Program-made: the position numbers and the translations under genes | IMG/VR virus record: IMGVR_UViG_3300047558_000360 | Span: 1-29,646 of that record | Source: a virus | Strand: one strand, 5' to 3' | Length of the DNA stretch: 29,646 bases | The notes under the pieces: generated by a model | What the model saw: only the letters and a program-made list of their open reading frames with translations | What the model was told of the DNA's origin: nothing | The model's database searches: none | Shown: positions 5,730 to 29,646 of the stretch, piece by piece | How positions within the stretch are numbered: the first letter of the stretch is position 1 | Layout of the letters: each line of letters begins with the position of its first letter

Positions 5730-7144
5730 TGAGTTTAGATAGATTTAAAAATATAACAGATGTAGTAAATAAGGGAACTTCCTTAACTACCGAATTGAAT
5801 TTAGTAGATTTAGAATTAATTGATAAAGGATTTAAATCTACTCCATTTAATATTGGTGTTAATGATGCCTTAGAATTTGTTTTATATGATGCATCTAATA
5901 ATCTATTACAGCAACAAGATTATGGTTCGGAACGATATATTAAGGGGGAAGAAATTTCCGAATATCTAATACAAAGTGAAAATATAACTGATAAGTTAAT
6001 AGATGGTGGTGGATTTTTAATTGATGTAAAGAGATTAATTAAAGAAGCTGGGTATAATACAGGTATATTTAGAGTTCAATTAAATTTTGTAAATGATAGA
6101 ATAGGTAGTTCAGTTCCAAAGGATAAATTGTGGGTTCAAGAAATATCTCCAACTCGTTTAGAACTTAGATTATTACCATTTGATAATTTTGATGAAACTA
6201 ATCCAATTGATATTGATACAAAAATTGATTTGAATCAATCATATAATAGTTTTGTAGAGGGTAAGTTTAGTGGAGATGAAGTTTATGCTGAAATAGATGA
6301 AATCTTAAATAGATTAACCCCATCCGAATTACAAAATACTTTTCAGAAAATAAAATCAGAAGCATATATAAATCAATTAGCTTCTGAATTCAGCCTTAAT
6401 AGTTGGGAAATATTTTTTACAAAAGTATTGGATTCAATGAGAACTGCTGTTAGACATGCTCTTCTTCATAAAAATTCAACAATTGGTTCAAACAATTTTG
6501 GTGAGTATTTATCCGATTTAGTAGATTTTAAATATTATAATAAAAAAGATATTATAAATCTATTAAATAGAAAATTTGAAGAAGCGGTTGATTATCATCT
6601 TCCTAAAAGAACTTTAAGTGAAGAAGTTAAATTAGATTATTTAACGCAAAATAGTATTGATAAATTACAACAACTTGTTCAGACAATAAAATCAGATGTA
6701 ACTAATACAAACCCTAAAGCAGTAAAAGCTACAATTGAACCACCTACATCTCAAGAAATAAGAGATGGATTTACAAAGGAAAGAATTGTAGTACAAACTC
6801 CTACTGCTCCTATTGTAATGGATGTTCCTGTTATTAAACCAACAGTAATAGAACCTGCACCAATACCTACACCGGTAATTACCGATATGGTATCTTCTAT
6901 TTATGAACCCGAAGTAACCAATGAGGCAATCGAAAAAAATAGATTAAGAAGATTGCAAGAAGAAATGATGTATCAACAAGGTGGTATGGGAACTCGTTAT
7001 GATGTTCCATATCAATCTCCATATGAACAACCTTCTATCCCTACTAACAATGGCGGAGGCGGCGGAGTTGTGTTACAACAAACTGATTACATATACAATA
7101 ATGATGTAGTTCCTAGACCAATTAAAAACGAAGAATTTCTATAA
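5729..7144 (+). CDS. Structural protein with Pro-rich and Gly-rich C-terminal tail
   Basis: A 471-residue protein I do not recognise. Residues about 1-150 are a beta-type domain containing an RYIKGEEISEYLI segment. Residues about 185-330 are largely helical. Residues about 330-400 form a Pro/Thr/Val-rich linker (VIEPAPIPTPVI), followed by a short helix (LRRLQEEMMYQQGG) and a Gly-rich stretch with five consecutive glycines near 444-448. Such low-complexity tails are common in phage structural proteins that tether domains. Both ends use TAATG overlaps, so it is translated with its neighbours in the baseplate operon. A wedge or fibre-attachment role is inferred from location only. Confidence 0.8.
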   Translation: MSLDRFKNITDVVNKGTSLTTELNLVDLELIDKGFKSTPFNIGVNDALEFVLYDASNNLLQQQDYGSERYIKGEEISEYLIQSENITDKLIDGGGFLIDVKRLIKEAGYNTGIFRVQLNFVNDRIGSSVPKDKLWVQEISPTRLELRLLPFDNFDETNPIDIDTKIDLNQSYNSFVEGKFSGDEVYAEIDEILNRLTPSELQNTFQKIKSEAYINQLASEFSLNSWEIFFTKVLDSMRTAVRHALLHKNSTIGSNNFGEYLSDLVDFKYYNKKDIINLLNRKFEEAVDYHLPKRTLSEEVKLDYLTQNSIDKLQQLVQTIKSDVTNTNPKAVKATIEPPTSQEIRDGFTKERIVVQTPTAPIVMDVPVIKPTVIEPAPIPTPVITDMVSSIYEPEVTNEAIEKNRLRRLQEEMMYQQGGMGTRYDVPYQSPYEQPSIPTNNGGGGGVVLQQTDYIYNNDVVPRPIKNEEFL

Positions 7145-7707: not shown

Positions 7708-10700
7708 ATGCAAGATTCAATAGATCAATTGTCGAATACACCAAACCAAAACAATCCAGGTGGAATACCATTGGAAGTGCTTAACTCGTCTACTTTGTCA
7801 AGTGTACCGACTGATACATATCAAGCAATTACTGAATTAAAGGGTCAAAGTGTTGGTGGTAATGCGATTTATAATACTCCATATGATGCTTTAAAAGCAG
7901 TTACTCCTACCAATCCACCATCATATGTTGCTCCTGGACAAAGAACATATAGAGAATACTTTTATTCACCTTATAATACTGTCAATTTTAATATAGATGT
8001 TCCTTTTGCACAAATAGCTGCAAGAGAAACTCCAATTGAAAATATGCCAGTTCAAACTGCTGAATTTGTTAATGTTAAATTAAGAAATACAACTGGACAA
8101 GATGGTGTTAGATTGTACATTGATAAACCTCAAAATGGTGTTGGTGTTGTAGATTTAACAGGAGAACAAACAATTGGTGTAGAAAAATATTCAAAATTAT
8201 CAATTGTAAGAAAAAATCCAAATTCATATAATATTAGTGCAATAAGAATTTATAATGAAAATGGTAATTTAGTAAAAGAAACATCTGCAAATACATTTGA
8301 TTTATCATCTATTGATTCTTCTTATTTAATTGAAGTAGATACGAATCAGGTAGTAACTACTGATATGCAACCTTCAATTGTTTCACAAATAAGACAATTA
8401 TATGGTTGGAATTTAGAAGCAAGTAAAACATTTACACTAAATGTAGGGGTAACTAATTCTACAACATATGTAAAATATTATTTTCCAAACCAATCTGGAG
8501 CAGATACAAACGGAGCAAAAAAGATATCCGTTACTAATGGAGAGGCTATTATAACATTAAATAATCCTAATTCTTTAGGAAGATTTGAATTAATTATATT
8601 TGCTGGAAATGAGATATTTGGTGATTTTGGTGAAATAAGAACATTCATTGAAGTATTACAAGAAAAAACTTACGGAGAGCCTGATGTAACAAAAATTACA
8701 TTTGATAGAAATATTACCGAAGCGGATTTAAGACCATTAGATTTTAATTTTGAATTTGATTTAGAATCCGTAAATTCCGAAGGTATTCAATTATTTTTAG
8801 GTGATAATTTAATTAATGATATTCCTGTTAAAGATAATAAAGCAAAATTAACTTTGGGTGCTAAAGGTCTTTATGAATTATATAAAGATTACTTTAACGA
8901 AACCAAAGAAACATATGCAATTACATTTACTTTTCAACCATACTTTTATGGAATAGATGGAAGAATAATTGGAAAAAAAGAAAGTGTAAGTGTATTAGTT
9001 AAAAGAGCAAAATTCTTAGTTTCTAAATCAGAAGCTATTGGATCAATCTCAAGCGTATTTTCTCAATTATTTTCAGGAGGAGATACTAAGAAAAAATACG
9101 AAGACCAGATTATATTTGAAGATGATAAACATTTATATTATCAGGTTAGAACAAATGCTGATAAATCGTTTGTAATATCAAATATTGGTATTGATACTTT
9201 AACCTATTCAATATTTGAAGGAAAGGTAGTTGAAACACAATTTGAACTTGATCCTAATACTGGAAACACAAGAAAGAAAAAAGGATATTTAACATATGGT
9301 TCGTTAGTAGTTAAATTATTAGAACCATTACCAACAGAAATTGATTTAAATACTCAAGTTTGGGTTTCTAAACAAATCATACCTTCTATTGTTGAAACTA
9401 TTATTATTACCGATGAAGATGTTGATAAATGTTTGCCATTAAAACCAAACTTCGGTACTGATATTATAGATGAAACTGGATATCAATTTTTCGATGAAAT
9501 AACTGCAAGTGGTTCTTTAACATCAACTGATATTGTTAATAGATATGTATCTCAAAGTCAATTTAATTTAGATAACTTAAACATATCATATACAAGTGGT
9601 AGTGATAAAACACAAGATTATTTCTTAAAGTTTGAAAACTTTACAAATTTTGGTGGGGCTCAAACTAGATTAGAAAACTTCCAATATAAATTACAATCAA
9701 TTGAAGTATGGGAAAATAAAGTTACAAATGATTTAATTTTATCTTCAGTATCATCATCTATTGCATTAACAACAAGTGCTTCTTATGATGATAAAGTAAA
9801 GGCTATTAAAAATGGATTTGATGGTCTTGAAAAAACTTTGTATAATAATTTTTATGTAACATCATCAACTGATTCGTTTTTTACAATTCAAACTTCAAAT
9901 GCAGAAGTATATGATAGAACTAATAAAAATTATTTAGTTAAGCATATTCCTCAACATATTCAAGAAGATCAAGGTAGTTTAGAATATCTAACATTCTTGG
10001 AAATGATTGGACAACACTTTGATATTATTTGGTCTTATATCAATGGTATCAATAGAGTTAGAAAAGTTGAAAACAAAGCAACTGATGGTATATCTGATAA
10101 ATTAGTATATGAGTTATTAGAATCATTTGGATGGGATCCAGTTAATCCATTCAGTGGAACGGATTTATGGAAACATGCATTTGGATTAAACGAAGATGGT
10201 TCTACTCCTACTAATAATAATATTTTAGGAAATAGTGTTTCTTCAACTTATACTCATGAAGAAGCTAGAAATCAGTTATGGAGAAGAATACTTAATAATT
10301 TACCTTATTTATTAAAACATAAAGGTACGAGAAAATCTATAAATGCTATATTAGCGTGTTATGGTGTTCCTTCTTCTTTGATGTCAATTGTTGAATTTGG
10401 AGGCCCATCGCATACATCCGCTGAAACATCTAAATATACATATGAAGACAGAAGTGCTGTATTAAATTTAAATGCGAATGAATATGTAACTATTCCTTGG
10501 ATTAGTTCTTCAAATGCACCTGAATCGATACAATTAAGATTTAAAACCAATGATAAAGTAAATACTCAACAGATAATAAGACAAGTATCTGGTTCAAATT
10601 ACTTTAAAGTTAGTTTAATACCTTCTGCTAGCACTGAAATTGGAGATATTAAATTAGAATTATTTTCAACAAAAAACCAATTTGATGGAACTTACTTAAC

Positions 10701-12690
10701 AACTACTGCATTATCAACAAGTAGTTTAAGTATTACAAAAGTACCTTTATTTGATAATGATTTTAAATTCGTAACTCTTCAAAGAAATAGAATAAATGAT
10801 GGAGGTTTAGATTATGATAGATATACTTTATATCTTAAAGAAGCGGTTGATGATAGAGTGATGTTATCAAAGAGTTCTTCATTAACTCTTCAGGTATCAT
10901 CATCTAATTCTTTATTTGCTGGAAGTGAATATTATACAAATTTATCATGGACAGGAAATGGAACTTTATTATTCGGAGGTAGTGGAAGTAATGGTATAAG
11001 TGGTTCGATAGATGAAGTTAGATTATGGAATTCTGCATTAAGTGAATCCGTTATAAATTCACATACTTTAAACCCAGATGTGATAAGAGGTAATAATGTA
11101 TATTCATCTACCGAACATTTATTAGTTAGATTAGATTTTGAATATCCTAAAAATCTTTATACTACATCTTCTATAAAGAATGTTGCACCTCATACTGCAT
11201 CATATACATCTTCAGCTGATGCACATATGAATTCAACTATAACTTCATATCCATATCATTATGATGTATATGAAAGATTTGTAACTGCTGATATTCCTTC
11301 AATTGGATTTGTTGGAAGAGATAAAGTTAGAACTGAAGATATTGAATTAGTTGGTAATTTATCATATAAAGCAAGAGCAACTAAAAAGGCATTTGATAGA
11401 GCAGCATTAGATTCAAATAGATTGGGATTATTTTTCTCACCTGTTAAAGAATTGAATTTGGATATTCTTAAATCAATGGGTTCTATTAATATTGGTGATT
11501 ATATTGGTGATTGGGGTGATGAATATGGTAGTGATTCTTATAGTGAATTGGTTGGATTAAGAAATTATTATTTTCAAAGAACAAATTTAAATTTTGATGA
11601 ATATATCAAATTAGTAAGATCAATAGATAAATCTTTATTTGATATGTTGGATCAGGTTATTCCTGTGAGAGCTAATGTATCAAAAGGATTATTAATCGAA
11701 CCTTCTCTTTTAGATAGAAGTAAAATTAAAATAAATAGACCTACTGCTGAAAACATATATCATAGTGGTTCTATAATAGCTACAACGGCTCAAAATATAG
11801 AAACTGAAATACCATATTTTACCGGTAGTTTAGATGTTCAAACTAATAAGGATTTAGAAGCATCAGTTGCTTTTTATTCAGGATCTTATGCAGTAGATGG
11901 TGTAGATGAGGTTAGTGCTGAATATCAAAGTTTAGAATCCGAATATACTGTCGTAGATTTAGATTCTATGAGTGGTGAAATAACATACAATTCGGGATCA
12001 ACAATGGGTGGTATCGAAATTATTGTAGATGCTGGATTAAAAGAATCTACGATAGTTGCTGAATATGATTTAGAAACTTCATATCAATCCGTAGGTAATG
12101 AATCCGATTCACCATTTAATTTAGGATTTGGATTATACGGACAAAAAGGTGCGGTAGATAGAACATATTTTAGAGAAGATGGAACTTTGGTATTAACTCA
12201 AAGATATAATGCTTATATTATAACAATTAGATATAGTAGAAATGTTCCATATAGAATTCCTGCAAACGGAATTTCTTCATCTCTTTATAATACTTCTAAA
12301 TTAGGAGCAGATGATAAGATAGATGTTCAAAAAGTTTATAGATATGAAAAGAAATTGGTATTAATTGACCCAATAGAAAATAATACTTTTAAAACACCTA
12401 CACAACATTCATTCTACGGAGATATATCATCTGCATTGGGTGTATTCCCATATGGTAAGGGAGTTATCACTGCTATTGAAGTATTTGATGGATATACAAG
12501 TGGACATTATAGATACACAAAGGATACTACAAGAGGTTTGGATAATTCATTCTTTGAAGGTTCTAAACAAACTTCTTTAACTACTTTAGATGGTGCATCT
12601 CCGGTAGAAGTATTTGTAACTAACCCTAATAGATTGAAAGTTGCGGCTTCAGGTAGAGGTAGTGGAGAACCAATATTGGAAGTTGATTAA
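7708..12690 (+). CDS. Giant tail/baseplate structural protein with LamG-like region
   Basis: At 1660 residues this is the largest complete gene in the window. The N-terminal half (about 75-600) is a chain of beta-rich, Ig-like segments. A central helical part includes a conserved-looking block NLPYLLKHKGTRKSINAIL (about 869-887). Residues about 915-1125 resemble a concanavalin/LamG jelly roll, opening with LNLNANEYVTIPW and closing with GSIDEVRLWNSALSESVI. The C-terminal third is again beta-rich. Single proteins of this size after gp6 are plausible functional counterparts of T4 gp7 (wedge) or of fused wedge and fibre-anchor proteins, but I see no direct gp7 motif. The LamG-like part could bind glycans on the host surface. 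It has its own promoter-like box 16 nt upstream and no Shine-Dalgarno sequence. Confidence 0.85.
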   Translation: MQDSIDQLSNTPNQNNPGGIPLEVLNSSTLSSVPTDTYQAITELKGQSVGGNAIYNTPYDALKAVTPTNPPSYVAPGQRTYREYFYSPYNTVNFNIDVPFAQIAARETPIENMPVQTAEFVNVKLRNTTGQDGVRLYIDKPQNGVGVVDLTGEQTIGVEKYSKLSIVRKNPNSYNISAIRIYNENGNLVKETSANTFDLSSIDSSYLIEVDTNQVVTTDMQPSIVSQIRQLYGWNLEASKTFTLNVGVTNSTTYVKYYFPNQSGADTNGAKKISVTNGEAIITLNNPNSLGRFELIIFAGNEIFGDFGEIRTFIEVLQEKTYGEPDVTKITFDRNITEADLRPLDFNFEFDLESVNSEGIQLFLGDNLINDIPVKDNKAKLTLGAKGLYELYKDYFNETKETYAITFTFQPYFYGIDGRIIGKKESVSVLVKRAKFLVSKSEAIGSISSVFSQLFSGGDTKKKYEDQIIFEDDKHLYYQVRTNADKSFVISNIGIDTLTYSIFEGKVVETQFELDPNTGNTRKKKGYLTYGSLVVKLLEPLPTEIDLNTQVWVSKQIIPSIVETIIITDEDVDKCLPLKPNFGTDIIDETGYQFFDEITASGSLTSTDIVNRYVSQSQFNLDNLNISYTSGSDKTQDYFLKFENFTNFGGAQTRLENFQYKLQSIEVWENKVTNDLILSSVSSSIALTTSASYDDKVKAIKNGFDGLEKTLYNNFYVTSSTDSFFTIQTSNAEVYDRTNKNYLVKHIPQHIQEDQGSLEYLTFLEMIGQHFDIIWSYINGINRVRKVENKATDGISDKLVYELLESFGWDPVNPFSGTDLWKHAFGLNEDGSTPTNNNILGNSVSSTYTHEEARNQLWRRILNNLPYLLKHKGTRKSINAILACYGVPSSLMSIVEFGGPSHTSAETSKYTYEDRSAVLNLNANEYVTIPWISSSNAPESIQLRFKTNDKVNTQQIIRQVSGSNYFKVSLIPSASTEIGDIKLELFSTKNQFDGTYLTTTALSTSSLSITKVPLFDNDFKFVTLQRNRINDGGLDYDRYTLYLKEAVDDRVMLSKSSSLTLQVSSSNSLFAGSEYYTNLSWTGNGTLLFGGSGSNGISGSIDEVRLWNSALSESVINSHTLNPDVIRGNNVYSSTEHLLVRLDFEYPKNLYTTSSIKNVAPHTASYTSSADAHMNSTITSYPYHYDVYERFVTADIPSIGFVGRDKVRTEDIELVGNLSYKARATKKAFDRAALDSNRLGLFFSPVKELNLDILKSMGSINIGDYIGDWGDEYGSDSYSELVGLRNYYFQRTNLNFDEYIKLVRSIDKSLFDMLDQVIPVRANVSKGLLIEPSLLDRSKIKINRPTAENIYHSGSIIATTAQNIETEIPYFTGSLDVQTNKDLEASVAFYSGSYAVDGVDEVSAEYQSLESEYTVVDLDSMSGEITYNSGSTMGGIEIIVDAGLKESTIVAEYDLETSYQSVGNESDSPFNLGFGLYGQKGAVDRTYFREDGTLVLTQRYNAYIITIRYSRNVPYRIPANGISSSLYNTSKLGADDKIDVQKVYRYEKKLVLIDPIENNTFKTPTQHSFYGDISSALGVFPYGKGVITAIEVFDGYTSGHYRYTKDTTRGLDNSFFEGSKQTSLTTLDGASPVEVFVTNPNRLKVAASGRGSGEPILEVD

Positions 12691-16475: not shown

Positions 16476-16919
16476 ATGTGGAAATATAAAAATGGGATAA
16501 TTTCAGATTTATCTGAAACCCCTGAAGGAGCTTTTGGGTTTGTATATGAGGTAGTACATCTCTCATCTGGCAAACGATATATAGGTAGGAAACAACTTAT
16601 ATCAGTAACCACAAAAGCATTGGGCAAAAAGGAATTATCAGAACTAACTGATAAGAGAGCTAGTAAGAAAAAAAAGGTTCAAAAAGAGAGTGATTGGAAA
16701 ACATATTATGGTTCACACTCTGAAATAAAAGCATTAATCAAAAGTGGGAAGCAAGAAGAATTCGAAAGAACTATTTTACAATTTGCTTTCTCTCCAAAAC
16801 ACTTAACTTACTTAGAAACAAAATATTTATTTTCATTAGATGTGTTAGAAAATCCTAACTTATATTTTAATGATAATATTTTAGGTAAATTTTTTAGAAA
16901 AGATATTCCAAATGGGTAA
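16476..16919 (+). CDS. SegE-like GIY-YIG endonuclease
   Basis: A 147-residue protein with the GIY-YIG nuclease core: the first strand GFVYEVVHL (21-29) supplies the GIY-equivalent Tyr24, then GKRYIGRKQ (32-40) supplies YIG with the following Arg/Lys. A basic insertion (about 50-70) leads to DWKTYYGSHSEIKALI, and the helix YLETKYLF near residue 114 offers the metal-binding glutamate. The order matches the SegE-type GIY-YIG family of T4-like phages, relatives of homing endonucleases that cut DNA once. There is no separate DNA-binding domain in this short protein, so target specificity is unclear. It overlaps the next gene by 8 nt and sits at the boundary between structural and replication genes, a common place for such mobile or accessory genes. 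Confidence 0.8.
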   Translation: MWKYKNGIISDLSETPEGAFGFVYEVVHLSSGKRYIGRKQLISVTTKALGKKELSELTDKRASKKKKVQKESDWKTYYGSHSEIKALIKSGKQEEFERTILQFAFSPKHLTYLETKYLFSLDVLENPNLYFNDNILGKFFRKDIPNG

Positions 16920-17733
16920 ATTATTAATGACAGTTGGGGATTCATTCACATTTGGTGAAGCGTTACAATTTCATTTATGGAAAAGTAAATACCCAACTAC
17001 ATTTAATAGATTTAAAGGCAAAGAAAGATATGATCCATGTCATTCTATTAGTGAAGATTTCATAGAATTTGATGATTTTAGAAGAAAAGTAAATTATACT
17101 GGACAACTATCCTCTATATTAGGAATAACATATGCTAAAAATTCTGGAAACGGAGGAAATAATATAGGTAGTTTAGAATTATTAGATAGATGGATAGAGC
17201 ATGTTCTTTATGATAAATCACTTGAACCTGAATTAGTTGTATTTCAATTTACCAATATAATAAGAGATGTTATACATTTAAAAAATATGAATGAAGGTAA
17301 TAGAGGGCCTTATAATCATATTTTTGAAAAAGTAAAAACCATATTATCTTTAATTGATAATATAAATCAACCTTCCAAAGAACAAATGGAAAATATGGGA
17401 AGTATATTTGCTGATTTTTTCTATACAATAGTTTTGGAAGTTCAAAAAAGATTTTCTATATTAGAGAATGAATTTGGAACAAAATGTATTTACTTCATAG
17501 GTAGTGCAGAGCAATATTCCAAACAATTATATCATTCATTGATACAATCTGATATACACTATTTACCAATTATTTATAAAGAAAATTTATATACTGATTG
17601 GGATACTATGAATAGACAAAATGGATTAACAATCAGATTAGAGTTGGGTGTAAACGATGACCATCCTACTTTAGATTCTCATCAATATATTACAAATCTT
17701 ATATATAAAAAATATTTGGATATTTCCAAATAA
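16912..17733 (+). CDS. SGNH/GDSL-fold hydrolase-like protein 1
   Basis: A 273-residue protein with the SGNH layout. Strand 1 ends in the nucleophile motif VGDSFTFG (Gly9-Asp10-Ser11), NSGNGGNNIGS (78-88) fits the block II Gly, FQFTNIIRD (111-119) fits block III with Asn115, and DDHPTLDSH near the C-terminus (249-257) fits the block V Asp-x-His. SGNH enzymes are esterases or acyl-transferases, often removing O-acetyl groups from sugars. It begins 8 nt inside the GIY-YIG gene and is followed by a second protein of the same fold. I infer an esterase acting on host surface glycan or on acylated metabolites; no signal peptide is present, so it acts in the cytoplasm, is released on lysis, or is carried on virions. 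Substrate is unknown. Confidence 0.75.
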   Translation: MGKLLMTVGDSFTFGEALQFHLWKSKYPTTFNRFKGKERYDPCHSISEDFIEFDDFRRKVNYTGQLSSILGITYAKNSGNGGNNIGSLELLDRWIEHVLYDKSLEPELVVFQFTNIIRDVIHLKNMNEGNRGPYNHIFEKVKTILSLIDNINQPSKEQMENMGSIFADFFYTIVLEVQKRFSILENEFGTKCIYFIGSAEQYSKQLYHSLIQSDIHYLPIIYKENLYTDWDTMNRQNGLTIRLELGVNDDHPTLDSHQYITNLIYKKYLDISK

Positions 17734-17746
17734 TTTCGTATATTTG
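17713..17746 (+). promoter_or_regulatory. Bacteroidota-type promoter with dyad over the -33 box
   Basis: The -7 element TATATTTG (17739-17746) matches the Bacteroidota consensus TAnnTTTG exactly, and a TTTG -33 element (17715-17718) lies 20 nt upstream of it. The -33 box lies in a perfect dyad with 8-bp arms TATTTGGA/TCCAAATA around TATT (17713-17732), a possible operator. The -7 box ends 4 nt before the ATG at 17751, so that gene's message would be nearly leaderless. Confidence 0.6.
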
Positions 17747-17750
17747 GGTT

Positions 17751-18452
17751 ATGAAAAAAGTGTATCTTTTTGGTGACTCATTTAGCCTTTTCAACGGATA
17801 TATTAAAAACCAATATTCGGATGTAATAGAATTCAATTCACATTCGTCTTTATCAAATGATCACATTTTAAAATTAGTTAAGAAGAAATTAACTAAACTT
17901 AGCAATGAAAATATAAAGCCAGAAGATGGTATTAATATTTTTGTTCAATTGACTGTATCTACTAGAATGTTAGTGAATTACACATCAAATGAACCCGCTA
18001 AAACTTCATTAGATGTAACATATGGATATTATAATCAAATGTTAGAATTTTCTGATGAAGAACTTTTTAAGGATAAAGAATATTATTCAATATATCCATG
18101 TGGGCCAAAAGATAATTTATTGATGGATATGATTTATAGACCGTATTTAGGAACATTTATTGCTCATAATGAAAAAAATATTTTAAATGATTTATTAGTT
18201 GAAGTAAATTGTTTAAAATCATTTGCTAAATCATTGAATATAAATTTTGATTATATTTTTTATTCCGATAATTTTGATAAATTATTGAGTGAAGGTGAAT
18301 CTACACATATTAGTTTATATGGACATCAAAGTGTTCAATCTTATATTAAATCAAATCATGCTCATTTTTTTATGACACCTATGGATATTCATTTTAATGA
18401 TGAAGGTAATTTGTGGTATATTAATTGGTTAAAAGAACTTTATGGTTTCTGA
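17751..18452 (+). CDS. SGNH/GDSL-fold hydrolase-like protein 2
   Basis: A 233-residue protein starting with the nucleophile strand KKVYLFGDSFSLFNG (Gly8-Asp9-Ser10) and ending with MDIHFNDEGNLWY, where Asp212 and His214 fit the block V Asp-x-His followed by the usual Asn/Gly. Block II and III residues are less clear (SLSNDHIL near 33-40; FVQLTVSTR near 65-73), so catalytic competence is not certain. It is similar in plan but not in close sequence to the preceding SGNH protein. The ATG is fixed because the GDS strand begins at once. It overlaps the primase gene by 11 nt and lies directly behind a host-type promoter, so it would be co-transcribed with primase. Confidence 0.68.
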   Translation: MKKVYLFGDSFSLFNGYIKNQYSDVIEFNSHSSLSNDHILKLVKKKLTKLSNENIKPEDGINIFVQLTVSTRMLVNYTSNEPAKTSLDVTYGYYNQMLEFSDEELFKDKEYYSIYPCGPKDNLLMDMIYRPYLGTFIAHNEKNILNDLLVEVNCLKSFAKSLNINFDYIFYSDNFDKLLSEGESTHISLYGHQSVQSYIKSNHAHFFMTPMDIHFNDEGNLWYINWLKELYGF

Positions 18453-19368
18453 AATAGATAAACAATTCGTTAAAACTAAAATTGATGAAGTTTTAGGAGG
18501 TGGAAGAAATTTGGGTAAAGATGAAATTCAATATTATTGCCCTTTTTGTTCTCATCATAAACCAAAATTACAAGTCAATTTAGAATCTCAAAAATGGAGA
18601 TGTTGGGTATGTAATTCCAAAGGTGGTAAAATTTATACACTTCTTCGTAAACTACAAGTTGATAGAGATGTTGTTGTAAAAGTAAATACTATCTATAACG
18701 AAGCAAATATTGGAGGAGAGGTTAAGGATGAAGAATATATTGAGTTAAAACTACCATCTGAATATAAATCTATATTAGATAATCAACATATTATAGAATA
18801 TAAAGTTGCTTACAATTATCTTAAAAAAAGAGGTATAAGTGATAAAGATATTCTTAAACATAAAATAGGATATTGTGATACTGGATTATACAAAGGTAGA
18901 GTTATTATACCTTCATATGATTGTGATAATAGATTAAATTTTTTTATAGCAAGAAGTATCTATCCAAATCAAAATATGAAATATAAAAATCCACCTGTAT
19001 CAAAAAATATAATTGGATTTGAATCAACTATAAATTGGGATATGCCCATAACTTTATGTGAAGGAGCATTTGATGCAATTGCTATCAAAAGAAATGCAAT
19101 TCCTATATTTGGTAAAACACTTCCAAAATTATTGAGTGATAAAATCTTAACAAAGAAACCTTCGGTTAATATTGTATTAGATAAAGATGCTATGGGAGAT
19201 GCGGTTAGGCATTATCAATATTTAACCAACAATGATATAGATTGTAAAATCATAACCTTAAATGGAAAAGACCCATCGGAAATGGGATTTATGGAAGTAA
19301 CTAAACAAATAGAAACAAATACAACTTCTTCTTTTGAAGATTTAATAAAACTTAAATTATCTTTATAA
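18442..19368 (+). CDS. DNA primase (DnaG/gp61 type)
   Basis: A 308-residue primase that would lay RNA primers for lagging-strand phage DNA synthesis. The N-terminal zinc ribbon has CPFC (33-36) and CWVC (54-57) as the two Cys pairs. A linker containing LKKRGISDKDIL (about 127-138) follows, then the TOPRIM domain with the catalytic LCEGAFDAIA (Glu207) and the metal-binding LDKD pair (Asp247, Asp249). Length is near that of T4 gp61. There is no fused helicase domain, so it must partner with a separate helicase not in this window. It overlaps the upstream SGNH gene by 11 nt and is followed after 1 nt by the membrane protein gene. Confidence 0.93.
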   Translation: MVSEIDKQFVKTKIDEVLGGGRNLGKDEIQYYCPFCSHHKPKLQVNLESQKWRCWVCNSKGGKIYTLLRKLQVDRDVVVKVNTIYNEANIGGEVKDEEYIELKLPSEYKSILDNQHIIEYKVAYNYLKKRGISDKDILKHKIGYCDTGLYKGRVIIPSYDCDNRLNFFIARSIYPNQNMKYKNPPVSKNIIGFESTINWDMPITLCEGAFDAIAIKRNAIPIFGKTLPKLLSDKILTKKPSVNIVLDKDAMGDAVRHYQYLTNNDIDCKIITLNGKDPSEMGFMEVTKQIETNTTSSFEDLIKLKLSL

Positions 19369-21262: not shown

Positions 21263-21442
21263 ATGACATATATAACCACCCGTGTCCCTAAATTAGCGGA
21301 TTTGAAAAAGGAATTGGAAGAACATCCTAACCGAATAGAATTGTATTGTAAATATATGGGGTATGATGGGGATAGTGAGGCAATTGCGTATTTAGAAGAG
21401 AAAATAAAGGAATATATGGACTCAAAAAATGTTAAAAAATAA
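21263..21442 (+). CDS. 59-residue hypothetical protein
   Basis: A short open frame that begins on the base after the cupin stop codon and ends at a TAA just before the promoter of the nuclease gene. The protein opens MTYITTRVPKLADLKKELEE and is mostly helical and charged, with a KYMGYDGDSEAIAYLEEKI segment (30-48). It fills a gap that would otherwise be 231 nt long in a genome with almost none. No family is recognised. Its direct abutment to the cupin gene and clean helical amphipathic pattern support it being real, but length alone cannot exclude a chance frame. Confidence 0.62.
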   Translation: MTYITTRVPKLADLKKELEEHPNRIELYCKYMGYDGDSEAIAYLEEKIKEYMDSKNVKK

Positions 21443-21493: not shown

Positions 21494-24400
21494 ATGAAGT
21501 TAGATAATGTTAAGTACATCTATCACTTAGCCGATTTGCATATTCGCAATTTAAAAAGGCATAAGGAATATAGAGAAGTATTAAATAAATTTTTGTCCGA
21601 TGTGGATTCTCAAAATTTAGAGAATTCCGTTATTTATTTAGCAGGAGATATTGCTCACGCTAAAACTGAAATGTCTCCTGAATTAGTTAGAGAGATTACT
21701 TGGTTTTTTACGGAATGTGCTAAAAGAAAACCTACTTATGTTATTACGGGAAATCACGATTGTAATCTAAACAATAAAGATAGATTGGATGTTCTTACTC
21801 CAATTTGTGATAATCTTTCCTTACCAAATTTATTTTATTTAAGAGATACTGGTGTATATCAGATTACCGATGATATTACTTTTACCGTCTATTCTATTTT
21901 AGACAAACAAGAAAATTGGCCTAAAGGTAAAGATGTAAGTGGTAATAAAAAGATTTGTTTCTTTCATGGACCGGTAGATGCTGCAAGAACCGATATTGGT
22001 TATGTAGTATCATCTAATAATTTCACACCCGATATGTTTGATGGGTTTGATATGGTATTAATGGGTGATATTCATAAAAGACAAGTTGTTCAACAAAGAG
22101 ATAAGGCAAATGGAAAACCTATTGTAGTTTACGCAGGTTCAACTGTCCAACAAAATCACGGAGAGTATTTAGAGAATCATGGTTATTTACTTTGGGATGT
22201 AGAAAATGAAACATTTGAAGAATATAATATTCATAATGATTATGGATATCTTACTATTGATATTGTAAATGGTGTAATTCCACAATGGGTTCATGATGAA
22301 ATAGGAACTAAGTTACCTAAACAACCTAGATTAAGAGTTCGTTTCTCCGATACTGAAGTTAGTGATATTAAGTTAGTAGCGGCAGAATTGCAACAAATGT
22401 TTAAGGTAAATGAAATTACTATTACAAAACAGGATACTTTAAACTCATTAAAATCTAAAAACCGAAATGCTAGAAACTTAGCTGGTAATATAAAAGATGT
22501 AAATGTTCAAAATGGTTTAATTAGAGAGTATTTAGAACGCCAATTTCTTTTAGATGATGAAACCCTTAATAAAGTAATTGAAATCAATAATGGGGTTAAT
22601 TTAAGGGTTACTCATGAAGATACTGATAATATTCTTTGGATTCCAAAATCTTTCGAATTCAGTAATATGTTTTCATATGGAGAAGGTAATAAAATTAACT
22701 TTGAGAATGCCAGAGGAATTATAGGATTATTTGCACCAAACACTCAAGGTAAATCATCTTTATTTGATGCACTTTCATTTTGTATATTTGATAAGTGTAG
22801 TAGAGCATTTAAGGCAACGCATATAATGAACAACCAAAAGGATACTTTTAGTTGTAAATTTAATTTTGAAATTGATGGTGTGAATTACTTTGTAGTAAGA
22901 GAAGCACACACTACAAAAAGCGGAAATGTAAAAGTAAATGTAAACTTTTTTAGAATTGTAGATGGTTCAGAAGAATCTTTAAATGGTGAAGAAAGAAGAG
23001 ATACAAACGATATTATTCGAAAGTATTTGGGAACATATGAAGATTTTGTGATGACATCTTTATCATTGCAAGGTAATAATGCTTTATTCATTGATAAATC
23101 TCAATCAGAAAGAAAAGATATATTAGCACAATATATGGGTGTTAATGTATTTGATAAATTGTTTGATATTGTAAATGAAGATAATAAAGAAGCAGCGGTA
23201 TTATTAAAGAATTTTAAAAAAGATGATTTCTCTCAAAAGTTGGGTGATTTAGAAACATCTATTACTACCGATACAATTAAATTTGATAATTTAATTGAAA
23301 AGAAAGATGATTTAGAACATGATAAAACTGAAATTGAAAGAGAATTATCAAAATTAGAATCTCAAATTGTTCAAACTGCTATCACAATAGATTTAGATGA
23401 TGAAACAAAACGATTAAATTCATTTAGTTCTTCATTAGAAACTAATAAGGAAAAATTGGGCAAAATGGAAACCCAATTAACTGAGGCGAAAGGTATTATA
23501 GTTCAATTAGAAGAGCAAAAGAAAGAATTATCTACTTTCAGTATAAATGGTACAGAAATTGATATTGAGTATGCGTATAACGACTGGAAAGATAAACAAA
23601 AAGATTTATCAGAAGCAGAAAGAAAATATGATACGGCTAAACAATATTTAGATGCTGCTAATCAAAAGATTGCACATTTAGATGATCACAAATATGATCC
23701 TAATTGTGAATTTTGTTGTGATAATGTATTCGTAAAAGATGCAATGAAAGCGAAAGAATCATTAGAAGAATTGGAAACGACAGTAGACCATACTTTGGAT
23801 GATGTACTTGGTATTAATAATACTTTAGAATTGTTAAAAGGAGTAGACGAAGCGTATAAAACATATACTGATAAAGAAAAAGAAATTGTTAATACTACAA
23901 CATTAGTTAGTAAAATTAAAGAGTATATTGCTAGAACACAATTAGATATAAAAAATTGTGAAGATGGTATCACAAAAGCTACTTCTAATATTGAAGAATA
24001 TCATAGAAACAAAGAACAAATAGAATTAAACAAACAACTTCGTAAGAATATAGCTGATACCAAAGAGATTATTAATGGTGTTAAGAAAGAAGTTAAACGA
24101 TTAGGTGATACTATTTTAGAACTTAATACAAAAATTTCAAAGGCAAAGCAGGAGAAAGAAGGTATTGAGGCTAATATTAAAAAAGTAAAAGAATTAGAGG
24201 AAACAAATAAATTATATGATTACTATTTGGATGCAACTAAGAGAGATGGTATTTCATATGAATTAATTTCTAAAACTCTTCCAACAATTGAAGGAGAGAT
24301 AAATAACATCTTAGGTCAAATTGTGGAATTCAGTATGAATCTACAAATGGATGGTAAGAATGTTAATGCTTACATCAATTATGGAGATAGTAGAAAGTGG

Positions 24401-24685
24401 CCTTTGGAAATGTGTAGTGGAATGGAGAAGTTTATCAGTGGATTGGCAATTAGAGTTGCATTGATAAACATATGTAATCTACCTAGACCAAACTTCTTAG
24501 TAATTGATGAAGGATTTGGTACTTTAGATAGTGAAAACCTACAATCCTTATTTATGGCTTTTGCTTATCTAAAAACACAATTTGAATTTGTGATTGTTAT
24601 TTCACATATTGATTCTATGAGAGATGTGGTGGACACTCTTTTAGAAATTAAAAAAGATAACGGATTTAGTTCCGTTAAGTTTTAA
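21494..24685 (+). CDS. Fused Mre11/SbcD-like nuclease and Rad50/SbcC-like ATPase (gp47-gp46 fusion)
   Basis: A single intact frame of 1063 residues that joins two proteins separate in T4 (gp47 and gp46), which resect DNA ends for recombination-dependent replication and host DNA breakdown. Residues 1-350 are a calcineurin-like phosphoesterase with LADLH (Asp14, His16), LAGDIAHA (Asp52), TGNHD (Asn87, His88), HGP (His158) and MGDIH (Asp192, His194), all metal ligands present. Residues about 385-1063 are the SMC-type ATPase: Walker A APNTQGKSS (Lys420), long coiled coils (about 570-720 and 750-930), a zinc hook CEFC (Cys738, Cys741), ABC signature MCSGMEKFISG (Ser975) and Walker B VIDEGFGTLD (Asp1005, Glu1006). 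The hook CxxC suggests dimerisation as in Rad50. It sits behind a host-type promoter and its end overlaps the convergent regulator gene by 11 nt. Confidence 0.95.
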   Translation: MKLDNVKYIYHLADLHIRNLKRHKEYREVLNKFLSDVDSQNLENSVIYLAGDIAHAKTEMSPELVREITWFFTECAKRKPTYVITGNHDCNLNNKDRLDVLTPICDNLSLPNLFYLRDTGVYQITDDITFTVYSILDKQENWPKGKDVSGNKKICFFHGPVDAARTDIGYVVSSNNFTPDMFDGFDMVLMGDIHKRQVVQQRDKANGKPIVVYAGSTVQQNHGEYLENHGYLLWDVENETFEEYNIHNDYGYLTIDIVNGVIPQWVHDEIGTKLPKQPRLRVRFSDTEVSDIKLVAAELQQMFKVNEITITKQDTLNSLKSKNRNARNLAGNIKDVNVQNGLIREYLERQFLLDDETLNKVIEINNGVNLRVTHEDTDNILWIPKSFEFSNMFSYGEGNKINFENARGIIGLFAPNTQGKSSLFDALSFCIFDKCSRAFKATHIMNNQKDTFSCKFNFEIDGVNYFVVREAHTTKSGNVKVNVNFFRIVDGSEESLNGEERRDTNDIIRKYLGTYEDFVMTSLSLQGNNALFIDKSQSERKDILAQYMGVNVFDKLFDIVNEDNKEAAVLLKNFKKDDFSQKLGDLETSITTDTIKFDNLIEKKDDLEHDKTEIERELSKLESQIVQTAITIDLDDETKRLNSFSSSLETNKEKLGKMETQLTEAKGIIVQLEEQKKELSTFSINGTEIDIEYAYNDWKDKQKDLSEAERKYDTAKQYLDAANQKIAHLDDHKYDPNCEFCCDNVFVKDAMKAKESLEELETTVDHTLDDVLGINNTLELLKGVDEAYKTYTDKEKEIVNTTTLVSKIKEYIARTQLDIKNCEDGITKATSNIEEYHRNKEQIELNKQLRKNIADTKEIINGVKKEVKRLGDTILELNTKISKAKQEKEGIEANIKKVKELEETNKLYDYYLDATKRDGISYELISKTLPTIEGEINNILGQIVEFSMNLQMDGKNVNAYINYGDSRKWPLEMCSGMEKFISGLAIRVALINICNLPRPNFLVIDEGFGTLDSENLQSLFMAFAYLKTQFEFVIVISHIDSMRDVVDTLLEIKKDNGFSSVKF
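24650..24677 (-). terminator. Hairpin terminator for the minus-strand regulator gene, possibly bidirectional
   Basis: A perfect 7-bp stem TAACGGA/TCCGTTA (24658-24664 with 24671-24677) with a 6-nt loop. Read on the minus strand it begins at the regulator's stop codon and is followed by TC and six T residues (24655-24650), a standard intrinsic terminator. On the plus strand it is followed by a weaker T-rich tract (24680-24683 and on), so it may also slow transcription leaving the nuclease gene. It lies inside the last codons of the 21494 gene. Confidence 0.65.
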
Positions 24686-24934: not shown

Positions 24935-27900
24935 ATGGCAAAAATTAAAAAAACATCCCCCCTTCTAAACTTAACAGGATTTCAAACATTTTTAGTTGAT
25001 ACAAATCCTCTATCAGATTATTTTAGAATATCGGAATTGGGAGATTTATTAACTTCTGGAAAAAATGGATTCTTAATCGAAGGTTCTACTCACCTAAAAC
25101 CATCTACTGAAGTTAAAATTGAAATATTGGATACTGAAGGTAATCCGATATATGTTGAGCCAGGAAATGGTATACCAGAATATTACGAAGGATTATCAAA
25201 ATTAATATCGGTTCATGTTTATCAAGATACTCCAATTGGTATAGGTAAAATTACCATTTTGGGAGAATTGGAAACTTATATAGATGATAATGGATTTGTC
25301 CAATCAGTTCCAGATGATTGGAAAGGAGTTTATAATGTTAAATGGGAAAGGGATATTAAAATCAATAAAAATATTCCTAATGAATCACGAATTAGATTTA
25401 CAAGAAGACCGCAAGTTATAATCGAGGAATTAAATGAAAGTTTTTATTCAAGAGATTTAACTACTGCAACACAAACGGATGCGACTGTAAGAGGTATAGC
25501 ATTGACTCCATCCGAAGGAACATCCTATACTGGTTTTAGAGGAGGTGTAAGATATTTAATTCAAAAAGAATCGGGAATACCATTTAAAGATGGTGGAACT
25601 CGAATTACAATAAATGGTACATCATTAAACGATGTGGAAGTTGTTGAATATCTAAACGAAACAACATTAGTAATTCAGATTCCTTATACGGATTCAAATA
25701 ATGTAATTTCTAATTTTAGTGGAAAAACATATTCTTTAACATATCAATATAATAGTAACCCGGTAGCATCTTCTATATTAGGTTCTTTTGGTAGATTTGA
25801 AATTAATTATTTAGAAACTTTCGTTGGTGATGTTGAAAGAATAAAAGTATTTAAAAAATCGAGAGCATCAAATGTAGATTATGAAGTAATTCAAGATACA
25901 AGAGTAACATCTGCAGAATTATTGACAACAATTGTTTCTGGATCAAATATAGATACCGGACACTTTAGTGCATCATATGAAGGTGGAAAAAATTGGAATG
26001 AATTTTGGGTAACTCAAAGTAATGCGGGTAATATATTAGATTCTTCTAAAATTTATAGAGCAGTAAAATTACAAAATAATAGATTATCATCAAATTTGGG
26101 TGATAATATTCGTTTGGAAAGTGGTAGTGAATATACTTTAGAATTTTACAATTATTATGAAACATCTTCTAATCAAAAATTAGATACTTTAAAAGTTTAT
26201 TTAACTTCTACCGAAAGAAGTGGTAGTGGTATAGCAAATTATGTACTTACTCAAAGTATTGATATATTAAGTGGTTCAAATGAAAGAAGAAGTGCTAACA
26301 AAGTTAGTTACAATTTTTATCCATCTATAACTGATAATTGGACGGTTCATTTTGAAGCAGATAATACAACTGCTAATTCATATTGGCATGTAGGAAGTGT
26401 GAGTTTGCAAGCTGCTCATGAAGCTGGATTCTCACCTGATGAATTTCAATTTATAATTCCTGTTAATAGAAACTTAGAAAGAGAAACATTTGATTTTAAA
26501 TTTGAATTTTTTGATATCAATAATAACTATGTTCCTATTACTACGACTTATCCAAAAACATTTCAAAGTGGTAATATTGGATTAATTGATAAAAATATTA
26601 TAATAGATACCGATAAACAATTTTTCAATTTCTCTTCATCATTAGAAGGATTACCATCCGAACAAATAATAAACATTACCGGAACAAAAAATAGAATATT
26701 AGGTAATTTATTAATTACTTCCCAGGCATTTGATACGGGAGGTATTGCAATCCCCGCCGCAACATATTCAAATGCAGGATATGCTTATCCAGGAGCACTA
26801 ACAAACTATAATGAAGATTTATATAGTTTATCAGCATCTTTGGATATAGCTAATTTTACGGGTTCATTGCATACTTCATCATTAGTTGATAGAATAACAT
26901 ATACATTAACTGAAACGGAATCAATACAACCTTTTGTAAAAAGATTTACAATAAGTAGATTGGTAGCGGGTGCAAGTGGGCAAGATGGTATTAATTCAAA
27001 GATATTATCAGTTTCAGCTAATACAAATCAATTTTTATATAAAGCTACTAACTTAGCATTAAACCCATCTGGTCAAACAATTTATATAGATGTTAAAAAA
27101 CAAAATTTATTATCAAGTTCAATAGAGCCGATAAGAATTAGTTCATCTTCAGCTTCGGCTCCTGCTATAAATTCAACATCGGGTTCTGAAGTTGGAGGAG
27201 TAACAAGATTTACATTAAATGGTTCACTATTTCCATATTCATTGGGAGAAGTTATATATGCCTTTACAGGATCAGATGAATTATTAAATCCATATTATGA
27301 TATTGTAAAGATAACACCTGTAAAAATATTAGATGGATTTTCGGTTATAGCTACAAATGAAAATACATCATTTGCTGCCACATCAACTGGAACAGTTTCC
27401 GGAGGATATGCGGCAAGTAGTGGTTCAATATTAGTTAAAGTAGGAAATGAACCAATAAATTATTCATCTACTTTTGTAACAAATTCATTTAGTGCAAGTA
27501 TTTCATCATCCACATCAGCGGGTATAAATGTAAATTCATTTAATGGTACTGATTATTCAATTTCAAATTTATCAATAGATAGTGGTTCACTTGTTATAGA
27601 TGTAAAATATAAAGATGGCGGCGGTACAATAATAAGTTCATCAAAAGAAATAACATATTCTAAAGTTAAAAAGTCGGCTCCATTAGTAACATTTAATATT
27701 GTAAATAGTAATCAATCAACTAATGCATATTCAAATGGAATACAAAGTGGTAGTTTTATTCCGGTTACAATGAGTGTATCGGAAACATATAATGGTATTA
27801 CCACAACATCCGTACCCACAACAATATCTGGAATATCGGTGCCAGCGGGAGCAGTAACATTTGGTATTAGTAGTAGTAAGCAAATTTTAACTGCATCTAT

Positions 27901-29646
27901 GGATTCGGTTTCATATGATTCTGGGGATATTATTCTTACCGGAACATATACGGATCAAGAAGGTAGTAGTAGAAATATTTCGGGAAGTGTTTCATTGGTA
28001 AAAGTTAAAAAGGCATCTCCTACTACATTAGCAATTTTATCATCGGAAACACAAACTATATTAAGTAGTTCTGCTGGATATGCAACACCTTCAACTTTTA
28101 CAATATCGGTAAATGAAGGAGGAACAAATTATACTTATGATGATACAGTTCCATATGCAAGTTCGAGTTTTAGAGTTTCGAGTATAAGTGGAGGTTCTAA
28201 TAGTAGTGGAACTATAACACCTACTACTCCATCATCAACTTCAGGAACGACTGTTTCACTTACTATTGCGTATGTTAATTCAGAAGGAACTGCAGGTACT
28301 ATAACAAAAACGCATAAGGTAGCGGTATCATTGGAAGGGCAAAAGGGTAACACCGGAGATCCTGGATCAAATGGTAGTGATGGTAAGAGAACTGCAACTG
28401 GAATGGTGCATTATCAAATTACCGCATCATCTGCACCTGCAACTCCATCTGCAACATCTTATAATTTTTCAACCGGAGTTTTCACTGGATTAACCGCAAA
28501 TTGGGGAACTGGTGCACCTACATATGCAAGTGGTAATAGTAACAAATATTGGTATGCAATTTATACAGTTGTGGAAACTACTGCTGGAGGAGGAACAGGA
28601 ACTCCAACATTCGGAAGCCCTACACAGGCTATTGGATTTAGTGGATTGGTATCATTCACCGCAGCTAATAATGTAAGTGATGGTTCTAACACTCTTTCCT
28701 TTGGTGTAGCCGGTGCCACTTTGATTAATGGTAGTAATATATCAACTGGAAAAATAATTTCCACAAATTATATTGCAGGTACTCCTTATACAACATCGGG
28801 TAGTATTATAGATTTAGATAATGGTAGAATTGCTACAAGAACTTTTTACATTGATTCAAATGGAGATGCAACTTTTAAAGGAACACTTTCAGCAGCGGGT
28901 GGAACATTTACAGGAAATTTATCCGCAGCAGGTGGTTCTTTTACCGGAGCATTAGTTGCAGCGGGAGGAACTTTTGCGGGTGATGTAACTGCAGCTGGTG
29001 GTAAAATTGGTGGTTGGACAATTGATAGTTCTTCAATATATGTACCAAATGCAATTTCATTAAACTCTTCAGCTAAAACAATTACGATAGCTGATACAAG
29101 TGGAGTACCGAGAGTTAATTTTAACACTAATACTGCATTCAGTTCATTAAGTGCTGGATTACCTACGACTGTAAGTGGAACTGGTACAAACTACAATTCT
29201 GGACCATATAGCCCTGGAAACTTTGATAGAAATTTAGGAGGTATGGCAAGTGTTAATAATAGAACTTACAATATTACTACAACTTGGACACAGGCTAATG
29301 GAACAACTGCATTAACAATATCAAGTGGTACTCCAAATACAATAGATGTTTGGTCTCAAATTGTTGTTGATAATGGTGTAACTACAACAGTTGTAGCTGA
29401 ATATAAAGATGGTGTAACATTTGGCAGTAGTGCCACTTGGGCGGCTATAAATAATAAGGTAGTTTCTACTACAATGACTGGTAATGGTAACACATGGACA
29501 GTTTATCAAAGATTTAAATGGACTTATCAAGGTACAACATCTTATACTGCAAATTTATATAACCAACCGGCAGTAAGTGTAACTTTAGCGGGAGCTAATT
29601 CATTCGTAGAAATTATAGCAGGTGGTATTCAAGTTGGTAGAGATTC
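24935..29646 (+). CDS. Tail fibre/host-specificity protein, 3' end beyond the window
   Basis: An open frame of 1570 codons without a stop, running off the right edge. The N-terminal about 170 residues (MAKIKKTSPLLNLTG..., with a VEPGNGIPEYYEGLSKLI block near 74-91) look like a virion-attachment domain. Residues about 170-800 are beta-rich, Ser/Thr/Gly-rich segments. About 805-1134 are three tandem Ig-like modules of roughly 110 residues whose ends are alike (KVKKSAP at 910-916, KVKKASP at 1023-1029, VSLEGQKG near 1131). A collagen-like run of six Gly-x-y triplets follows (1135-1152), and four 11-residue AAGG(T/S)F(T/A)G repeats lie at 1320-1363. These are hallmarks of a trimeric host-recognition fibre with a beta-helical shaft. 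The receptor-binding tip is presumably downstream. Confidence 0.9.
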   Translation, partial: MAKIKKTSPLLNLTGFQTFLVDTNPLSDYFRISELGDLLTSGKNGFLIEGSTHLKPSTEVKIEILDTEGNPIYVEPGNGIPEYYEGLSKLISVHVYQDTPIGIGKITILGELETYIDDNGFVQSVPDDWKGVYNVKWERDIKINKNIPNESRIRFTRRPQVIIEELNESFYSRDLTTATQTDATVRGIALTPSEGTSYTGFRGGVRYLIQKESGIPFKDGGTRITINGTSLNDVEVVEYLNETTLVIQIPYTDSNNVISNFSGKTYSLTYQYNSNPVASSILGSFGRFEINYLETFVGDVERIKVFKKSRASNVDYEVIQDTRVTSAELLTTIVSGSNIDTGHFSASYEGGKNWNEFWVTQSNAGNILDSSKIYRAVKLQNNRLSSNLGDNIRLESGSEYTLEFYNYYETSSNQKLDTLKVYLTSTERSGSGIANYVLTQSIDILSGSNERRSANKVSYNFYPSITDNWTVHFEADNTTANSYWHVGSVSLQAAHEAGFSPDEFQFIIPVNRNLERETFDFKFEFFDINNNYVPITTTYPKTFQSGNIGLIDKNIIIDTDKQFFNFSSSLEGLPSEQIINITGTKNRILGNLLITSQAFDTGGIAIPAATYSNAGYAYPGALTNYNEDLYSLSASLDIANFTGSLHTSSLVDRITYTLTETESIQPFVKRFTISRLVAGASGQDGINSKILSVSANTNQFLYKATNLALNPSGQTIYIDVKKQNLLSSSIEPIRISSSSASAPAINSTSGSEVGGVTRFTLNGSLFPYSLGEVIYAFTGSDELLNPYYDIVKITPVKILDGFSVIATNENTSFAATSTGTVSGGYAASSGSILVKVGNEPINYSSTFVTNSFSASISSSTSAGINVNSFNGTDYSISNLSIDSGSLVIDVKYKDGGGTIISSSKEITYSKVKKSAPLVTFNIVNSNQSTNAYSNGIQSGSFIPVTMSVSETYNGITTTSVPTTISGISVPAGAVTFGISSSKQILTASMDSVSYDSGDIILTGTYTDQEGSSRNISGSVSLVKVKKASPTTLAILSSETQTILSSSAGYATPSTFTISVNEGGTNYTYDDTVPYASSSFRVSSISGGSNSSGTITPTTPSSTSGTTVSLTIAYVNSEGTAGTITKTHKVAVSLEGQKGNTGDPGSNGSDGKRTATGMVHYQITASSAPATPSATSYNFSTGVFTGLTANWGTGAPTYASGNSNKYWYAIYTVVETTAGGGTGTPTFGSPTQAIGFSGLVSFTAANNVSDGSNTLSFGVAGATLINGSNISTGKIISTNYIAGTPYTTSGSIIDLDNGRIATRTFYIDSNGDATFKGTLSAAGGTFTGNLSAAGGSFTGALVAAGGTFAGDVTAAGGKIGGWTIDSSSIYVPNAISLNSSAKTITIADTSGVPRVNFNTNTAFSSLSAGLPTTVSGTGTNYNSGPYSPGNFDRNLGGMASVNNRTYNITTTWTQANGTTALTISSGTPNTIDVWSQIVVDNGVTTTVVAEYKDGVTFGSSATWAAINNKVVSTTMTGNGNTWTVYQRFKWTYQGTTSYTANLYNQPAVSVTLAGANSFVEIIAGGIQVGRD
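28337..28390 (+). repeat. Collagen-like Gly-x-y run in the tail fibre gene
   Basis: Six consecutive Gly-x-y triplets (GQK, GNT, GDP, GSN, GSD, GKR; residues 1135-1152). Short collagen-like helices of this kind are common in phage fibres and serve as trimeric connectors between modules. Confidence 0.8.
28892..29023 (+). repeat. Four tandem 33-bp (11-residue) repeats in the tail fibre gene
   Basis: Units at 28892, 28925, 28958 and 28991 each encode AAGG followed by (T/S)F(T/A)G or, in the last, KIGG and three further residues. The third codon positions differ between copies, so the DNA repeats are diverged while the protein pattern is kept. They precede an IGGWTIDSSSIY motif seen in phage fibre shafts. 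Confidence 0.85.

Follow-up and report, generated by a model that had tools for sequence, protein, structure and literature searches.

The window analysed here, a 29.6 kb fragment of viral DNA, encodes at positions 21494-24685 of its plus strand a single protein of 1063 residues, in which an N-terminal Mre11/SbcD-like nuclease is followed by a C-terminal Rad50/SbcC-like ATPase. The gene is one open frame from ATG to stop, and its product is very probably a phage Mre11-Rad50 complex (SbcCD, or gp47-gp46 of T4) contained in one chain, which would resect DNA ends for recombination-dependent replication. An uninterrupted chain of this kind, with the nuclease first, had already been recognized in a preliminary description of this DNA, and the reading frame, Pfam and PHROGs all agree with it.

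Architecture and catalytic residues of the fused protein

Pfam places the Metallophos family at residues 9-195 (E 2.4e-8) and the AAA_23 family at residues 390-625 (E 4.3e-10), both above their curated cut-offs, whilst in PHROGs an SbcD-like family spans residues 5-361 and an SbcC-like family residues 288-1062. The NCBIfam models of SbcC (TIGR00618, 77.3 bits) and SbcD (TIGR00619, 28.7 bits) score on this protein below their curated cut-offs of 478.5 and 77.65. Reading from the N-terminus, and always on the plus strand, a calcineurin-like phosphoesterase, the Mre11/SbcD nuclease, occupies residues ~1-246 (21494-22231), as given by Metallophos and by a fold match with a Z of ~20 over residues 7-320. 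It is followed by a predicted capping-domain region at residues ~247-321 (22232-22456), delimited from the predicted secondary structure and from an alignment with the Mre11 nuclease and capping fold that reaches residues 311-322. Next comes a putative helix-loop-helix region, with helices at residues 336-351 and 355-369 (22499-22600), assigned from the predicted secondary structure of the model and with its role taken from what PMC3175470 describes. Between helix 355-369 and strand 383-390, residues 370-382 (22601-22639) show no regular structure and form the linker of the two halves, ~13 residues long in the AlphaFold2 model. Capping and helix-loop-helix regions thus appear to be kept in the model, with a short linker before the ATPase.

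The ATPase half begins with an N-terminal lobe at residues ~383-550 (22640-23143), assigned from Pfam, motifs and the model, which holds the Walker A motif APNTQGKS around K420. Two stretches of long helices in the model correspond to an ascending coiled coil (residues ~551-732; 23144-23689) and a descending one (residues ~744-915; 23723-24238), and the zinc-hook motif C738-E-F-C741 (23705-23716) lies in between. The C-terminal lobe, defined by its motifs at residues 917-1063 (24242-24682), carries the signature C974-S-G-M977, a Walker B motif ending in D1005-E1006 and the H-loop residue H1038. All the SbcC/Rad50 motifs are consequently present, that is, Walker A, Walker B, signature, H-loop and a CxxC hook at the coiled-coil tip.

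In the AlphaFold2 monomer the secondary structure of the nuclease half follows that of Mre11, and the hook cysteines sit between two long helices. Structural comparison with VIA-align matched the N-terminal 320 residues to Mre11/SbcD (Z ~20, 261-291 residues, rmsd 3.6-4.4 Å) and residues 382-1063 to Rad50 (Z ~17, 319-334 residues, rmsd 4.2-5.0 Å). Many SMC proteins also appeared among the fold-search matches, as expected for a protein with an ATPase and a coiled coil. The model, built from 43 sequences, has a mean pLDDT of 73.6, and because its pTM is low (0.43) and several active-site loops fall below a pLDDT of 50, it is silent on how the nuclease is seated at the head.

The preliminary description had named fourteen catalytic and structural residues (D14, H16, D52, N87, H88, H158, D192, H194, K420, C738, C741, S975, D1005 and E1006), and all of them are found at those positions. 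Together with H55, C974, G976 and H1038 they make 18 checked positions, and the 18 are invariant in all 43 aligned family members, including both hook cysteines and the nuclease ligand positions (21494-22231) D14, H16, D52, N87, H88, H158 and H194, to which H55 and D192 are to be added. Chance matches to these motifs are ruled out by such a conservation. The set had been called complete and every position is indeed there, but the word is slightly generous with regard to Asp192, Ala414 and Met977. A Walker A motif follows the pattern GxxxxGK and the SbcC signature the pattern SGG; Ala414 takes the place of the first glycine of the former, and Met977 that of the second glycine of the latter.

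In the nuclease site, His55 is matched by a histidine in Thermotoga maritima (GDLLH), so it is not odd, although Staphylococcus aureus has an aspartate there (GDLYD). Position 192, on the other hand, is Asp in 43 of the 43 family members and His in both T. maritima (LGHIH) and S. aureus (LGHLH). Asp192 replaces a metal-binding histidine of the solved relatives, and therefore metal use or activity could differ; this uniform His-to-Asp change is the one point that a specialist might follow. The substitution could even be read as the mark of an inactive or structural nuclease, in a protein devoted mainly to tethering or bridging DNA ends, a reading that its presence throughout the family would favour. 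We consider it improbable, given that aspartate is able to bind metal and that all the other ligand positions are invariant in the 43 members. Ligand conservation so uniform suggests instead an active site under selection.

A primase neighbour and a probable role in end resection

The genes upstream of the fusion are one of the GIY-YIG type, two to which the searches made assigned no family, one for a primase, a small unknown one, and those for thymidylate synthase and a cupin. The primase, of the DnaG type (18442-19368, plus strand; Pfam DNAG_N and Zn_ribbon_DnaG; phrog_47 DNA primase, E 2e-41), is the conserved neighbour: it lies on the same strand within 4.2 kb of the fusion in 142 of 143 viral relatives, made up of 78/78 loci of a first set and 64/65 non-repeated loci of a wider one. 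Thymidylate synthase and cupin neighbours occur in only 12 of the 78 and in none of the 65. Phage SPO1 also has a primase, directly after its separate SbcC. With regard to the recombinase, a RecA family scored above the Pfam cut-off in nine of 13 long records carrying the fusion, and the four records with no RecA match, 101-164 kb in length, are probably fragmentary contigs.

Several other frames of the window are worth recording. Downstream of the fused gene, a frame that runs off the window end occupies positions 24935-29644, with 1570 codons or more and no match in Pfam or PHROGs; sequence resembling it comes after the fusion in 53 of 78 relatives. The interval from the cupin gene to the fusion holds a 59-codon frame (21263-21442), seen by eye, and a 1660-codon frame with no PHROGs match (7708-12690) lies near baseplate genes. 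Two adjoining frames of 273 and 233 residues at 16912-18452, present in 11 and 12 of the 78 relatives, both begin in the manner of SGNH-type hydrolases (GDSFT, GDSFS).

The canonical Mre11-Rad50 complex is already an M2R2 assembly, so the statement in the preliminary description that fusion fixes a 1:1 stoichiometry adds little. In the mechanism that we propose, two copies of the window protein would dimerise through their nuclease halves and through ATPase heads engaged by ATP, the coiled coil ending in the zinc hook. The result would be an ordinary M2R2 head where each nuclease is tethered to its own ATPase by the short linker. With ATP driving its opening and closing, the complex would then allow the nuclease to process DNA ends, and the resulting 3′ single strands would be used by a phage RecA-type recombinase to feed recombination-dependent replication. 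According to PMC3016280, end resection in T4, before strand exchange by UvsX, is probably the work mainly of gp46 and gp47. By analogy, a T4-like role in resection is likely for the window protein, because the same domains are encoded beside a primase gene in genomes that also encode a RecA-type protein. As natural 1:1 complexes, one-chain versions may be easier to purify and study than the two-subunit SbcCD.

A different occupation for an ATPase-nuclease of this kind would be defence or counter-defence, as in Lamassu- or Wadjet-like systems, rather than replication or repair. The ATPase half is matched by Lamassu LmuB with E 2e-26, and Lamassu chains are among the Foldseek matches, but LmuB is itself Rad50-like and a match with it is to be expected. 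Moreover, the nuclease half is of the Mre11 type, with putative capping and helix-loop-helix regions, and the gene found constantly near the fusion encodes a primase. Among the neighbours scanned, many of which lack a family, none was recognized as an LmuA-like partner. All this makes a defence function very improbable.

The single frame among viral relatives and its origins

The first search yielded 78 loci in IMG/VR, viral contigs encoding relatives of the protein, whose frames were traced by script. A single frame crosses the junction in all 78; it is complete in 55, and in the other 23 the contig ends before the frame does, but always beyond residue 600. A wider viral search with alignment found at least 559 encoding stretches, from which 80 loci were kept; 15 of these repeat a locus of the first set, leaving 65. 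Counting repeats and the window's own locus (L001), a frame matching both halves was found in 171 of 176 loci. The other five are L084, fetched deliberately for its separate SbcC, L173 and L174, with the nuclease only, L175, where two genes lie side by side, and L176, with no frame match at a contig edge. An Rfam intron search of the window gave no match. That the halves are really separate genes, joined into one frame by sequencing or assembly error, is next to impossible. Whilst gp47 and gp46 do stand apart in T4-like relatives (P-SSM2), as the preliminary description had said of T4, no stop or restart appears between the halves in the relatives (78/78 read through residues 350-385), the window gene has no homopolymer of six or more in those residues, and the isolated Microcystis phage Mel-JY01 has the fusion annotated as one gene.

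Some relatives depart from the common form. In a 484 kb phage (LR756508.1, locus L081) an insert of ~900 bases at 8686-9603 splits the nuclease half, not the junction, just after the metal-site motif GDIHKRQ. The insert encodes an HNH-endonuclease-like gene (phrog_1271), the C-terminal part of whose product matches a TnsA-like endonuclease. Rfam gave no intron at the insert, which has the appearance of a mobile endonuclease lodged in a catalytic motif. A relative of 999 residues (L053, 8001-10988) lacks ~60 residues of the capping-domain region and keeps the rest. In L173, a contig labelled Bacteroidales and phage-like by its primase neighbour, the nuclease half stands alone (5998-6831, 277 residues), without capping region or adjoining ATPase, and an AAA+ protein is encoded downstream.

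A tree of the ATPase was made from 340 columns, with 28 fused rows (the window, L081 and 26 others hand-picked from the 171 loci) and eight non-fused ones. Twenty-seven fused rows, the window's included, group together with support 99/99, and the fused protein of Xanthomonas phage XacN1 groups with non-fused proteins of the P-SSM2 type (98/98). A single origin of all fusions was rejected when one clade was imposed (AU p 0.008), with the caveat that long branches meet in a set of 340 columns. As XacN1 stands outside the window's fused clade in this tree, the fusion probably arose at least twice, XacN1 being a separate event, although the details of the tree are unsure because several branches are very long. 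Viruses would have fused these genes more than once, as the clade indicates, in line with the repeated fusion already suggested in 2011 (PMC3175470).

Second copies of the pair were sought with the PHROG 100 and 77 profiles in the 13 long records, and a clear separate SbcC-like match was obtained in LR756501 only. This 735 kb phage (LR756501.1) has, in addition to the fusion, a T4-type SbcC-like gene at 670999-672753 (L084, 6006-7703), and the two proteins fall in different parts of the ATPase tree. The PHROG 100 nuclease model matched there only a different frame of 262 residues, and it gave no match in four of the 13 records, all of them carrying the fused gene, so that the absence of a second pair elsewhere weighs little, the model having missed known copies. 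The same four records exemplify a wider effect on annotation: fused genes are often labelled merely 'AAA domain', as in Mel-JY01, or split over PHROGs 77 and 100, and their nuclease half is therefore undercounted in phage surveys.

It is conceivable, though unlikely, that the window's clade makes up a biochemical class of Mre11-Rad50 on its own, a single old fusion that none of the examined viral relatives has split again, with a primase always near by and Asp in place of His in the metal site. If so, a fusion whose metal site is altered may work in cis in processive, replication-coupled end processing, with metal or cleavage preferences unlike those of SbcCD.

Known fusions and two-gene systems

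Compared with T4 gp47/gp46 and their relatives in P-SSM2, SPO1 and PG07, the window protein has the same domains and a probable role in end resection in common, but they are two genes there, separated by five others in SPO1 and by one in P-SSM2, and one frame in the window. E. coli SbcCD shares both folds and differs in having two chains and long coiled coils. Among fused proteins, WWT39521.1 of Mel-JY01 (PP395634) aligns with 100% of the window protein at 39.8% identity, is encoded in one frame and has a primase just upstream, the difference being its annotation as a mere 'AAA domain containing protein'; a literature search on this phage found no paper. XacN1 ORF305 (AP018399) is fused in the same order, but it is only 20-21% identical to the window protein and its ATPase groups with non-fused T4-like proteins.

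A literature search for other reports of the fusion gave one relevant paper, where Yoshida, Claverie and Ogata described in 2011 an N-terminal Mre11/C-terminal Rad50 fusion for Mimivirus R555 and for twelve other proteins, the fusions coming from bacteria, eukaryotes, plasmids and Bacillus phage 0305phi8-36 (PMC3175470). In our plasmid search ten records matched, none over 80% of the query, and the Clostridium and Deferribacter plasmid fusions listed in 2011 were absent among them. The same paper gives the order as nuclease-first, and reports R555-like genes as abundant in aquatic viral metagenomes and fractions, with primases on the same scaffolds. Architecture, order, compatibility with the complex and viral home are thus already in print, the one-chain arrangement is common in aquatic viruses, and the unusualness implied in the preliminary description is not supported, nor is novelty, given that relatives are encoded in a single viral collection by 559 stretches or more. 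The further claim that fusion constrains how the complex closes is reversed in the argument of PMC3175470: since the C-terminus of T. maritima Mre11 lies ~28 Å from the N-terminus of Rad50, a linker calculated at 9-12 residues is enough for fusion and leaves the ordinary architecture intact; the linker of the window protein has ~13.

A close parallel in that account is R555 itself, which shares with the window protein the order of nuclease, capping region, helix-loop-helix, short linker and ATPase, an aquatic viral home and phage primases on the same scaffolds. According to the published description, R555 has a histidine in place of the third Asp of the SbcD motif and an aspartate in place of His206, and these two active-site departures are present in the window protein too, as H55 and D192. 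The differences are that R555 is longer, with 1351 residues as against 1063 and a longer coiled coil, and belongs to a virus of amoebae.
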